From Streptomyces sp. I6 (lineage in GTDB: Bacteria > Actinomycetota > Actinomycetes > Streptomycetales > Streptomycetaceae), in NCBI GenBank assembly GCA_003725745.1, contig RHDP01000001.1, positions 1,271,501 to 1,335,500 on the forward strand: DNA of 64,000 nt. Reading direction: 5' to 3'. The notes beneath the pieces are model-generated. The model did no database searches. It had not been told where the DNA came from and saw nothing but the letters and a program-made list of their open reading frames with translations. Of this stretch, positions 21,377 through 24,912 are shown piece by piece. The translations under genes and the position numbers were made by a program. How positions within the stretch are numbered: the stretch's first letter is position 1; every line of letters begins with the position of its first letter.

Positions 21377-22390
21377 TCAGGCCTCGACGCTGTCCTTCTC
21401 GGCCTCGGCCGTGGGCTCCGTCTCCGGCTTGTCCTGCCCGGTCCGCTTCTCCTGCTTCCTGGAGGCGATCAGGCTGGTGAGGGTGGTGACGATCAGGACA
21501 CCGCAGATGAACGTCAGCGAGAACGGGGTGGAGATCTCGGGGACGTGGACCCCGGACTCGTGCAGTGCGTGCAGCACCAGCTTGACGCCGATGAAGCCGA
21601 GGATCACCGACAGGCCGTAGCTGAGGTGGACCAGCTTGGTGAGCAGTCCGCCGATCAGGAAGTACAGCTGCCGCAGACCCATCAGCGCGAAGGCGTTCGC
21701 GGTGAAGACGATGTACGGATCCTGGGTGAGGCCGAAGATCGCGGGGATCGAGTCCAGCGCGAACAGCACGTCGGTGGTGCCGATGGCGAGCATGACGACC
21801 ATCAACGGCGTCAGGACCCGGCTGCCGTTGACGCGGATGAAGAGCTTGGTGCCGTGGTACCTGTCGGCGACGCCGAACTTCCGCTCGATGGACTTGAGGA
21901 GCCGGTTCTCCTCGAAGTCGTCCTCGTCCTCGTCGGAGCGCGCCTCCTGGATGAGCTTCCAGGCGGTGTAGATCAGGAACGCGCCGAAGATGTAGAAGAC
22001 CCAGGAGAAGTTGGCGATGATCGCGGCGCCCGCGGCGATGAAGACGGCCCGCAGCACCAGCGCGATGAGCACGCCGAACATCAGCACCCGCTGCTGGAGC
22101 TGGGACGGAACCGCGAACTTCGCCATGATCAGTACGAAGACGAAGAGGTTGTCCACGCTGAGCGACTTCTCGGTGATGTAGCCCGCGAAGAACTCGCCCG
22201 AGGCCTGGCTCTCACCCGCCATCAGCAGGGCGACGCCGAAGATCGCGGCGAGGACGATCCAGACGATCGTCCAGATTCCCGCTTCCTTGATCGACACGTC
22301 GTGGGGCTTGCGCCCGATGAAGAAGTCGACCGAGATCAGGGCGAGGAGACCGAGAATGGTCACCAGCCACATGGTCAACGAAACGTCCAT
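21377..22390 (-). CDS. terC: TerC/Alx-family membrane protein, probable Mn2+ exporter
   Basis: A 337-residue polytopic membrane protein of the TerC family. Members in E. coli (Alx) and Bacillus export manganese and are controlled by yybP-ykoY riboswitches. Conserved acidic membrane motifs are SVDNLFVFVL (about residues 78-87) and ALDSIPAIFG (about 200-209), the presumed metal path. About eight to nine membrane segments and a charged C-terminal tail rich in Glu/Lys. ATG 22390 is preceded by GGAGG at 5 nt spacing. That ribosome site lies in an 8-base element complementary to the 3' strand of the upstream riboswitch helix. The Ter label is historical; tellurite resistance is not implied. Other TerD proteins lie just upstream. 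Confidence 0.93.
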   Translation of the reverse strand: MDVSLTMWLVTILGLLALISVDFFIGRKPHDVSIKEAGIWTIVWIVLAAIFGVALLMAGESQASGEFFAGYITEKSLSVDNLFVFVLIMAKFAVPSQLQQRVLMFGVLIALVLRAVFIAAGAAIIANFSWVFYIFGAFLIYTAWKLIQEARSDEDEDDFEENRLLKSIERKFGVADRYHGTKLFIRVNGSRVLTPLMVVMLAIGTTDVLFALDSIPAIFGLTQDPYIVFTANAFALMGLRQLYFLIGGLLTKLVHLSYGLSVILGFIGVKLVLHALHESGVHVPEISTPFSLTFICGVLIVTTLTSLIASRKQEKRTGQDKPETEPTAEAEKDSVEA

Positions 22391-22432
22391 TGCGCCTCCG
22401 GCGTCGTACGGCTACTCACCAGCGTCGTCGTT

Positions 22433-22555
22433 GCCGGAGGTCTCTTCCACCCGGGGTGGCTGGTCGCCGAACCGCGGGCCGGCGCCCCGGGACCGCTCTG
22501 GTCTTTCGGTCCGTACTGACGGGCACGCCGCAGGTGGGAGTACTCCCCTCCGTCC
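22433..22555 (-). promoter_or_regulatory. yybP-ykoY-type Mn2+ riboswitch candidate in the terC leader
   Basis: On the minus strand, P1 pairs CGGAGG (within 22547-22555) with CCTCCG (22434-22440). Directly inside P1 are the class hallmarks GGAGTA on the 5' side (22541-22548) and AAGAGA on the 3' side. A second helix joins CCACC with GGTGG, and CGTCAGTACGG sits where the conserved GUCA/UAC loop belongs. The 3' strand of P1, CCTCCGGC (22433-22440), is perfectly complementary to GCCGGAGG (22395-22402), which contains the terC ribosome site. Metal binding stabilising P1 would thus free translation. Assignment is from memory of the family consensus. Confidence 0.75.
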
Positions 22556-22582
22556 GAGGAACCCTACCCGAAAGACCAAAGA

Positions 22583-22612
22583 AAGGTAAAGGCAGAGGTA
22601 AACAAGGGTCAA
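22583..22612 (-). promoter_or_regulatory. terC promoter
   Basis: On the minus strand, -35 TTGACC (22607-22612), 18 bp, -10 TACCTT (22583-22588), within a rare AT-rich patch. Transcription would start near 22576, about 20 nt before the riboswitch helix P1, giving a leader of about 185 nt. Confidence 0.65.
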
Positions 22613-22679
22613 AATCACAGATCAGCACGCGGAAGTCCGGTTCATCCCGGGCGCCGGACACCACACGGGGGCGCGTGAG

Positions 22680-22725
22680 GCGCACCAGCAGACCGTCACA
22701 AAGCGCACCAGCAGACCTTCACAAA
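22680..22725. repeat. 23-bp direct repeat upstream of the terC promoter
   Basis: Two tandem copies starting GCGCACCAGCAGACC (22680-22702 and 22703-22725) differ at one base. They lie about 70-115 bp upstream of the terC -35 box, within the 278-bp stretch between that promoter and the next gene, in which I see no gene. Two ACCTGCA copies follow near 22760-22780. Confidence 0.7.
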
Positions 22726-22890
22726 ACGGTACAGGCGAGCAAAGGCCGGCATAGACCTGCATATACCTGCACACAGACCGACCGGACCCGTGGCAAGCCG
22801 CAGGGACCCGAACACACCGGCAGCAGGCCGCACGGCCCACACGGAACCGGCCGGCGGCTCTCGGTCTCCACCGAGCCGTGTGTGCGGAGG

Positions 22891-24846
22891 TCAGCGCCGC
22901 CGGATCCGCCGTGCCTGGGCGACCTTGGCCAGCACCGGCCCGAGCATGTCCGCGTACTCCGGGAACGCGGGCGGCTCGTACGTCCAGACGTGCTGGACCC
23001 AGGGATCGGCCAGGTGGTCGTCCGGGACCGGGGTGATCCGCAGCAGCGAGCGCCACAGCGGATCGAGCACCGGCCCGTACGCGGACGCGTCCTCCCGGTC
23101 GGCCACCATGAGCAGATGGACGCCGACCGCGGGGCCCTCGTCGGCGAGGTAACGGAGCTGTGTCACGGCCCGGTCGTCGAAGCCGTGCGGGAAGTCGCTG
23201 ACGACCAGCAGCTGCTGAGCGGTGTCCAGGTCCGGTGGCAGTGCGTCGGCGGCGTCCCCGCGCACGGCCATCTGCACCAGGTCGACGCGCCGCGTGAGCG
23301 TGGCGAGCACCGCCGAGACGCCCGAGGCTCCTGCCGCGGGCGGCTCGTCCAGCACACCCGACCGCGCCAGCGGGGCCAGCGAACGCGCCGCCGTACCCGC
23401 GGGGTCGATCACCCGCACGGTGAACTCCCCGGCCGGATGGGCCGCGAGCAGCCGGGTCGCGTGGGCGACCGCGGTGTCCATGGCGAGCGCGCGCGCCGGC
23501 GCCTCCTCCGGCGCCGCGGCGCGCTCCGACGGGGTCCGGCCGCTGTCCACCCAGAGACCGCGCTCCAGCGGCAGCCGGACCAGCATCGGGATCCGGAGGC
23601 CGGGTCGCTCGGGAAGGTGGAGGTCCCCGAGGCGGAGGGCCATCGGCGTCTCCGTCGGGACGCGGTAGTGCCGCCAGACCGGACTGTCCCAGCGCGCGAA
23701 CGCCGGCGGCAGTGCGGGCTCGACGACCTCCGACTCGGCGGCCAGCTGGTCGAGATCGCGGTCCAGGACCTCGCGGGCACGTCCCGTCAGCTCGTCGTGC
23801 CTGGCACGGGCCGCCTCACGAGCGGCGTCCCCCGTGCCGGCGAGACGGCTGCGCGGATCGGACAGGGCGCGGTCGAGTTCCCGGCCGAGCCGTGAGCCGG
23901 CGAAGTCCACCGCGCTGCGGTACGCGGCCGTCGTCCGGGCGAGGTCCTCGAACATGCCCCACACCTGGTTGTACAGCCGCTCCTCCATGGACCAGCCGGT
24001 GGCGTCGCCCGCGACGGGCACCGGCGGCCTTCCGGGCGCGGCGGGCGGTACGGCCGGGGGCGGCTGCGGGGCGGCGGACCGCCTGCGCGGGTGCGTGTAG
24101 TCGACGGGGCCGCCGTACCTCCGGGCCGCGGGCTGCGGCGGCGCCTCGGGTTCCGCGGTCTGCGGGCCCGTGTTCGAGGCTGATGCAGCCGGGCCGTGGT
24201 CGGCAGCGGGGCCCGGTTCCCCCGCGGTGGCGGCCGCGGTGGCGCCGCGCCGCACCTCCGCCGTCCGGACGGGGGGTGTGCCGGCCGTGCGGGGGAGGCC
24301 GGGCGCGACGGCTTCGTGGACGGCGGCGGCGAGTTCGCCGGCGCGGTCGAGCCCCTGGTCGGCAAGGCAGGCGGCGAGGCCGCCGGCGTATCCCTGGCCG
24401 ACCGCGCGGACCTTCCAGGCCCCGTGCCTGCGGTAGAACTCCAGGGCCACGACGGCGGCTTCGGATTCCAGGCCGGTGATGGTGTAGCTGGCGGCACCGG
24501 GGCCGTCGGGGGCGCCGACGGAGAGGAACGGCGCGGCGACCGCCCCGAAGCGGACGGGGAACCCGGGACCCGACGGCAGCGCGAGCACCACCGCCACACG
24601 ATGCACCGAGGAGGGCACGGCGTTCAGGTCGACGGCCAGCAGATGGCCGGCGGTGGCCTGGCGGGAGACCTCGACACCGGGCAGTGCCGGCTGGGCGGGG
24701 TGGGCGACCCACTCGGCACCGGGCACCCGCCCGTCCTCGCCGCTCAACGTGACGGCGGCCACGACCGGTGCGCCGGCCGACACCCGGATGTCGAGCCGCG
24801 GGTGGGGCAAGGGATGGTTCTGTCCCCTGACCAGCTCGGCCGTCAT
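22891..24846 (-). CDS. TerD-domain protein with inactive FtsK/HerA-like C-terminal domain
   Basis: A 651-residue cytoplasmic protein. Residues about 1-165 are a TerD domain (LDIRVSAG ... VHRVAVVLAL ... ALEFYRRHGAWKVRAVGQGY). A Pro/Ala/Arg-rich linker (165-275) leads to a helical segment and a C-terminal region (about 400-651) resembling the FtsK/HerA-type domains of Ter stress systems (LRIPMLVRLPLERGLWVD, FTVRVIDPAGTA, QLLVVSDFPHGFDDRA). I see no Walker A lysine where one would be expected, so ATPase activity is doubtful. ATG 24846 (MTAELVRGQN) follows AGAGG. It lies 120 bp downstream of the smaller terD gene on the same strand, a recurrent streptomycete pairing. Role: metal or oxidative stress response by analogy, unproven. 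Confidence 0.82.
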   Translation of the reverse strand: MTAELVRGQNHPLPHPRLDIRVSAGAPVVAAVTLSGEDGRVPGAEWVAHPAQPALPGVEVSRQATAGHLLAVDLNAVPSSVHRVAVVLALPSGPGFPVRFGAVAAPFLSVGAPDGPGAASYTITGLESEAAVVALEFYRRHGAWKVRAVGQGYAGGLAACLADQGLDRAGELAAAVHEAVAPGLPRTAGTPPVRTAEVRRGATAAATAGEPGPAADHGPAASASNTGPQTAEPEAPPQPAARRYGGPVDYTHPRRRSAAPQPPPAVPPAAPGRPPVPVAGDATGWSMEERLYNQVWGMFEDLARTTAAYRSAVDFAGSRLGRELDRALSDPRSRLAGTGDAAREAARARHDELTGRAREVLDRDLDQLAAESEVVEPALPPAFARWDSPVWRHYRVPTETPMALRLGDLHLPERPGLRIPMLVRLPLERGLWVDSGRTPSERAAAPEEAPARALAMDTAVAHATRLLAAHPAGEFTVRVIDPAGTAARSLAPLARSGVLDEPPAAGASGVSAVLATLTRRVDLVQMAVRGDAADALPPDLDTAQQLLVVSDFPHGFDDRAVTQLRYLADEGPAVGVHLLMVADREDASAYGPVLDPLWRSLLRITPVPDDHLADPWVQHVWTYEPPAFPEYADMLGPVLAKVAQARRIRRR

Positions 24847-24912
24847 CGCCTCTGTCCCCCTCGGTGGTGTGCGGATCGGCCCCCGGCGTCCGCTGCCTCC
24901 GGGAGCCACCGG

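Follow-up and report, generated by a model that had tools for sequence, protein, structure and literature searches.

The leader of the terC gene studied here is proposed to consist of a Mn2+-sensing aptamer of the yybP-ykoY type (positions 22552-22433, minus strand) and a directly adjoining platform that would switch translation on, a reading to which we assign a probability of about 0.85. The leader very probably works as an on-switch; its kind is known, and Rfam overlooks it. All positions refer to the window, the whole 64,000 nt stretch of Streptomyces sp. I6 DNA that was analysed.

The gene product belongs to the TerC/Alx family, with scores of 178.4 bits against Pfam TerC (cut-off 27.8) and 379.5 bits against the NCBIfam model TIGR03718 (R_switched_Alx, cut-off 246.4). 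Upstream on the same strand, the gene at 22891-24909 (minus) contains a TerD domain, and terC thus adjoins a ter-type gene. TerC proteins of B. subtilis are reported to metalate secreted enzymes (PMC10550928), and by analogy TerC may act as more than an exporter, delivering metal to secreted enzymes besides exporting it. The terC start codon (ATG, 22390-22388) lies four bases past the strand containing the ribosome site, GCCGGAGG (22402-22395), and this strand is fully complementary to CCUCCGGC (22440-22433, reading CCTCCGGC on the minus strand) at the 3′ end of the aptamer. The first-pass annotation had pointed out this 8-base complement, and its letters and coordinates all proved correct on reading the minus strand. 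By itself such an 8-mer is not rare, as it occurs 13 times in the 64-kb window against 14.4 expected from shuffled sequences, and a pairing between P1 and the ribosome site therefore needs comparative support.

We collected 110 terC loci of Streptomyces (overlapping sets of 80 and 30, own locus included), with 94 distinct leaders when that of the window is counted. The sequence GGGGAGUA was found upstream of terC in 106 of the 110 loci, the exceptions being L028, L055, L063 and L066. The L028 leader (Streptomyces sp. TRM49041) lacks the middle of the aptamer and keeps the P1 3′ strand and the ribosome site, which could reflect either a genuine deletion or a gap in the assembly. Forty Streptomyces leaders picked for diversity (alignment A2) had 96.8% of cells paired in helices P1.1, P1.2, P3.1, P3.2 and P4, with a covariation score of 0.107 versus 0.069 for shuffled alignments (0/500), and P1.1 and P1.2 hardly vary within this set. 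RNAalifold alone drew the lower part otherwise, with a local GGAGUACUCC hairpin replacing P1.2. R1, a covariance model built from A2 and free of any E. coli sequence, nevertheless recognised the E. coli alx leader across all 112 positions (40.4 bits; E = 2.5e-6 in 71,002 bases), which places the Streptomyces leaders in homology with a reported Mn2+-responsive riboswitch; R1 gave no match to E. coli mntP at E≤10. Finally, R1 matches fetched outside Streptomyces were aligned with alx (alignment A3, 102 matches from 100 loci); these are fitted to the model, and A3 therefore leans towards it. The resulting parts of the locus, all on the minus strand, are as follows.

22547-22552, minus strand: P1.1 5′ strand CGGAGG (R1 match 22552-22433; helix 1 of alignment A3)
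22540-22546, minus strand: L1 5′ side GGAGUAC (R1 match; GGAGUA invariant in 102/102 aligned matches)
22537-22539, minus strand: P1.2 5′ strand UCC (R1 match; helix 2 of A3)
22522-22530, minus strand: P3.1 5′ strand, with one unpaired base inside (R1 match; A2 and A3)
22513-22521, minus strand: L3 5′ side CGUCAGUAC (A3 column 42 is A in 102/102)
22507-22512, minus strand: P3.2 5′ strand GGACCG (R1 match; A2 and A3)
22490-22495, minus strand: P3.2 3′ strand CGGUCC (R1 match; A2 and A3)
22480-22487, minus strand: P3.1 3′ strand (R1 match; A2 and A3)
22475-22478, minus strand: P4 5′ strand CCCG (A2; helix 5 of A3, 98.2% of cells paired)
22450-22453, minus strand: P4 3′ strand CGGG (A2 and A3)
22446-22448, minus strand: P1.2 3′ strand GGA (R1 match; A3)
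22441-22445, minus strand: L1 3′ side AGAGA (last three bases, AGA, invariant in 102/102)
22433-22440, minus strand: switch strand CCUCCGGC (22440-22435 form the P1.1 3′ strand; all eight bases form the anti-ribosome-site strand)
22420-22433, minus strand: small linker hairpin CAACG-ACGA-CGCUG with one A.C mismatch (leader alignment)
22395-22402, minus strand: ribosome-site strand GCCGGAGG, complement of the switch strand (sequence and comparison)
21377-22390, minus strand: terC, encoding a TerC/Alx-family protein of 337 aa (matches to Pfam TerC and to NCBIfam TIGR03718 R_switched_Alx)

From P1.1 to P4, 94.3% of the A3 cells were paired, and changes on both sides of a pair affected 582 cells versus 176 in shuffled alignments; the covariation score was 0.593, compared with 0.201 after shuffling and at most 0.104 when the structure was slid along the alignment. 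Pairing reached 94.6% of cells in P1.1, with both-side changes in three pairs, and 99.7% in P1.2, where 68 cells had changed on both sides. P1.1, P1.2, P3.1, P3.2 and P4 thus follow each other in the order of a yybP-ykoY aptamer and are supported by covariation against both shuffled and slid controls. The residues that mark this family are also present, as L1 GGAGUA, the 3′ AGA and an L3 with its invariant adenosine all occur in the leader of the window. In A3, all 102 sequences, alx included, share GGAGUA in L1, G, C and A within the CGUCA of L3, and the 3′ AGA; the U of CGUCA is kept in 98 of them. The Mn2+ site of the L. lactis riboswitch comprises G9, U39, C40, A41, U44 and C45, with N7 of A41 taking part (PMC9190785). 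Matched letter by letter to L. lactis, in a register that is our own inference, L3 of the window reads U, C, A, A and C, with A where L. lactis has U44, and position 22517 is proposed as the equivalent of the Mn2+-contacting A41 on this inferred register. The P2 hairpin of the four-way junction is absent, with P1.2 and P3.1 separated by only 6 nt and short linkers also in A2. As alx has a comparably short linker in A3, P2 seems dispensable, and the literature mentions a three-way form in Streptococcus (PMC9495176). The linker hairpin between switch strand and ribosome site is common among Streptomyces leaders in the form CAGCG-ACGA-CGCUG, and its four inner pairs are paired in 94.9% of cells.

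A match of the leader to the Rfam model RF00080 had been expected in the first-pass annotation, which had named its absence as an outcome that would refute the riboswitch, and this expectation failed: there was no match at the gathering score (45 bits) in the whole window, so that the leader falls outside the family by that rule, and none at E≤10 in the region 22300-22800. Elsewhere in the genome RF00080 gave two weak matches (14.1 and 10.4 bits), and among 60 genomes of the order it gave sub-threshold matches (E≤1) in 17 and a match over the cut-off in none. It likewise had no match in the leader of the window (L133) or in leaders L151-L160, all of which are found by R1. The E. coli alx locus was also without a match to RF00080 at E≤1, and mntP scored 41.6 bits, below the cut-off of 45, so the rule also drops reported members of the family. 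As it misses alx, a reported Mn2+ riboswitch, RF00080 was rejected as arbiter, and the fault lies with this model, since R1 finds alx whereas RF00080 does not. A missing RF00080 match must consequently not be taken as a missing manganese riboswitch.

Searches with R1 gave matches in 136 of 150 Streptomyces genomes at E≤0.001, and at E≤0.01 in 139 of 246 genomes of the class, spread over 53 of 103 genera, with 20 of the 139 genomes being Streptomyces. Of the matches outside Streptomyces that were fetched, 87/99 stand 5′ of a TerC homologue; this association with TerC, like the homology of the aptamer, is evident from sequence comparison. We also inspected nine terC leaders from nine of the 14 R1-negative Streptomyces genomes (L264-L272, with the start placed one codon off in L272), which seem to represent several stages of aptamer loss. 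Four of the nine keep GCCGGAGG and six keep CCGGAGG, while L267 and L270 keep both switch strand and ribosome site and are without L1. The four leaders with GCCGGAGG indicate that the ribosome site can outlive the aptamer, or that the hairpin can remain without it.

Within Streptomyces, all eight Watson-Crick pairs between switch strand and ribosome site were conserved in 91 of the 94 distinct leaders, and at least seven in 93; both partners of the outer pair have changed in L054. The observed duplex energy was reached by 23/1000 permutations in Streptomyces alone, as the two strands hardly vary there and own and swapped pairings consequently differ little; the Streptomyces leaders by themselves were therefore rejected as proof of coevolution. 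The distant set consisted of 86 leaders with a start called by script, some of which may be wrong, and contained 26 distinct switch strands. The duplex of each leader's own switch strand and ribosome site averaged -13.23 kcal/mol over the 86 leaders, versus -10.53 kcal/mol for permuted pairs (0/1000), and with one leader per distinct switch strand the values were -11.49 and -7.88 kcal/mol, respectively (permuted sd 0.41, 0/1000). An own complement of at least six Watson-Crick bases was found for 15/26 distinct strands, compared with a mean of 2.1 and a maximum of 7 after shuffling, and 0/5000 shuffles reached 15. Among 41 leaders with a switch strand other than CCUCCGG, 20 have a six-base complement to their own strand and seven would suit the Streptomyces strand.

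Examples of joint change of switch strand and ribosome site are CCUUCGGC with GCCGAAGG, CCUCGAAC with GUUCGAGG, CCUCCAGC with GCUGGAGG, and CCUUCCAC with GUGGAAGG. Several of these changes take the ribosome site away from GGAGG, such as GCCGAAGG facing CCUUCGGC, and to judge from the sequences ribosome binding alone would not explain such shifts. Where present (60/86 leaders), the complement ends 4-17 nt (median 9) 5′ of the start codon, and an own complement of at least six bases is missing in 26/86 distant TerC leaders. The 8-mer is thus kept within Streptomyces, and outside it both strands change together, which takes the match beyond chance. Conservation of the complement had been set beforehand as a test of the proposed switch, and the strand pair passed it in Streptomyces as well as, by covariation, across the distant leaders.

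Because they share the switch strand, the P1.1 pairing and the ribosome-site pairing are mutually exclusive on one RNA molecule, as is expected of a translational ON switch and as the first-pass annotation had maintained; predicted folding and comparison both agree with this. In the predicted ground state of the free window RNA, switch strand and ribosome site are paired with a probability of 0.98-0.99 and P1.1 with a probability of 0.0. When P1.1 or the whole aptamer was forced, the modelled ribosome site did not become fully unpaired (pairing 0.04-0.87 per base). The OFF ensemble lies approximately 10 kcal/mol below the ON ensemble (-85.5 versus -75.1 kcal/mol), in nearest-neighbour energies that omit tertiary contacts and Mn2+ and hence cannot settle the balance between the two states. 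Co-transcriptional folding would be a natural way out of such OFF-favouring energies. The leader as a whole folds no better than its shuffles (z = -0.60).

We propose that without Mn2+ the 3′ strand of P1.1 and two further bases (together CCUCCGGC) would pair with GCCGGAGG, keeping terC translation low. Binding of Mn2+, together with Mg2+, would dock L1 onto L3 and stabilise P1.1, which would take its 3′ strand off the ribosome site and allow terC to be translated; the two overhanging bases of the switch strand (GC, 22434-22433) may serve as a toehold for this strand exchange. The ligand, the stabilisation of P1.1 and the ON direction are taken from homologues: Mn2+ stabilises P1.1 in the X. 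oryzae riboswitch (PMC6754395), and a hidden ribosome site is freed by Mn2+ in E. coli mntP (PMC11647493), which applied to the terC leader suggests that Mn2+ holds the switch strand in P1.1. The exchange of the switch strand between P1 and the ribosome site, which had been suggested from the single sequence to turn terC translation on, is strongly supported by the comparison.

A share of the control may lie at transcription. An RNA of this kind could also act mainly on transcription, with a hairpin formed against P1 leading to Rho-dependent or U-less termination, or with the untranslated transcript being shortened, and with masking of the ribosome site as a secondary effect. We regard such a mainly transcriptional action as unlikely, despite published precedents: a yybP element upstream of SCO2347, which encodes an integral membrane protein, is given as an example of active attenuation in S. 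coelicolor (PMC4681348), E. coli mntP combines its riboswitch with Rho (PMC11647493), and TaRTLEt lists yybP-ykoY among the families with evidence of termination (PMC12121620). A simple scan of 22300-22900, to which Rho sites are invisible, showed no terminator-like site, and an intrinsic terminator in the leader was dropped as a candidate on this basis; furthermore, the complement covaries at its short distance from the start codon in the 60 distant leaders that have it. It is less probable still that the fold is real and senses another signal, such as pH or another divalent ion, or that the ribosome-site hairpin is constitutive. The alx element was first described as pH-responsive (PMC3874183), alkaline pH adds to Mn2+ in E. 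coli (PMC9603457), and two of the nine R1-negative leaders keep the two strands without L1. On the other hand, the residues of L1, the A41 equivalent of L3 and the 3′ AGA show no variation among the aligned matches, alx included, and the genes that follow encode TerC in most distant matches and GDT1 in two of the other matches tested, all of which favours a Mn2+-responsive aptamer.

The conserved 3′ part of the leader might alternatively represent a short upstream reading frame (GUG GAA GAG ACC ...) that attenuates terC. This frame has a stop before the ribosome site in 64 of the 94 distinct leaders, 57 of the frames are 12 codons long, and the sole leader without the GUG (L042) has AUG instead. 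Yet 19/94 lack a stop before terC codon 6, in a further 10 the stop falls at the ribosome site or past it, lengths range from 9 to 27 codons, the frame begins within the aptamer core with no ribosome site of its own recognisable by eye, and a paired change in P4 (a UA pair, columns 93-137) accounts for the AUG of L042. With neither frame nor stop conserved, the reading frame was rejected as highly improbable. Chance complementarity between a G-rich ribosome site and a C-rich strand, which the frequency of the 8-mer in the window would allow, has next to no likelihood, as the joint changes across distinct switch strands (0/5000 shuffles) rule it out. Translational control by strand exchange remains our preferred reading.

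Several other loci carried similar RNAs. The own genome contains a second RNA resembling a Mn2+ riboswitch on the minus strand of L001 (approximately G000:C1:1778278-1778457), located before a GDT1/UPF0016 gene; it carries AAGGGGAGTAG, CGTCGACATACTG and GAGACCTTCGGCA, with TGCCGAAG downstream, and reached only 14.1 bits with RF00080. The same arrangement was seen in another Streptomyces genome (L118:1501-1647; RF00080 24.3 bits, sub-threshold), where the downstream protein has the ELPDKT motif of the own genome's GDT1 gene, its family being judged by eye. R1 aptamers precede GDT1 antiporters in L239 and L248 (Pfam), and by eye also in L254 and L258; in these four the P1 complement, located by eye, lies well upstream of the start, and they may have a different, transcriptional platform. 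In L163, L165, L169 and L185 the aptamers stand before proteins with similar starts (MGKLSRLIGLAS in L165, MASFSRLIDLAS in L185; L163 and L169 by eye), and the L165 and L185 proteins (approximately 290 aa) matched no Pfam family. L211 has its aptamer before a PGPGW transmembrane protein, while L219 and L235 each contain two back-to-back R1 matches on opposite strands.

We consider it rather probable that actinomycetes possess a large, P2-less subclass of Mn2+ riboswitches that is related to alx and missed by Rfam, with the ribosome site of each gene dictated by the aptamer upstream: this site would be a near-copy of the P1 5′ strand, drifting along with it even off GGAGG (e.g. GAAGG), so that one strand exchange makes up the whole switch. 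The proposed switch provides a simple and testable model of Mn2+-dependent terC translation that applies to the majority of sampled Streptomyces and to many further actinomycetes; the natural variants with joint changes in P1 and ribosome site are ready-made compensatory mutants. The literature search, with some key subscription papers outside its scope, did not find a direct platform of P1 and ribosome site described for actinomycetes. Already in print are a yybP-ykoY element before C. glutamicum terC (PMC3890552) and a yybP element in S. coelicolor (PMC4681348), and the kind of switch is known from mntP and alx; what is useful here is the direct, compact platform and the blind spot of Rfam.

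Among the closest known systems is E. coli alx, a yybP-ykoY member responsive to Mn2+ and pH, which shares the aptamer core recognised by R1 and the TerC/Alx gene, and for which control is reported to be at translation (PMC3874183), as is proposed here. Inspected by eye, alx differs in that the P1 3′ strand has its own hairpin complement immediately behind it, with the ribosome site further down. Switch strand and ribosome site of alx share only four contiguous Watson-Crick bases, and their best duplex is interrupted (-7.8 kcal/mol), which is similar to swapped actinomycete pairs, and a direct pairing in alx would thus be weak, yet possible. E. coli mntP, also a yybP-ykoY riboswitch that turns translation on, is alike in that Mn2+ exposes a hidden ribosome site (PMC11647493), but it controls another gene and has no direct complement (three bases, -1.8 kcal/mol, for a switch strand chosen by eye). 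C. glutamicum cg2157 is likewise an actinobacterial terC with a yybP-ykoY leader supported by RNA-seq (PMC3890552), and differs in that its leader was recognised by the then-current Rfam model, with 49.13 bits. The Mn2+ riboswitches of X. oryzae and L. lactis have the P1.1 switch helix, the docking of L1 and L3 and the invariant adenosine in common with the terC leader (PMC6754395, PMC9190785); they are transcriptional, and the structure that competes with P1.1 is a terminator in those reports, whereas in Streptomyces it would be the pairing with the ribosome site of terC.
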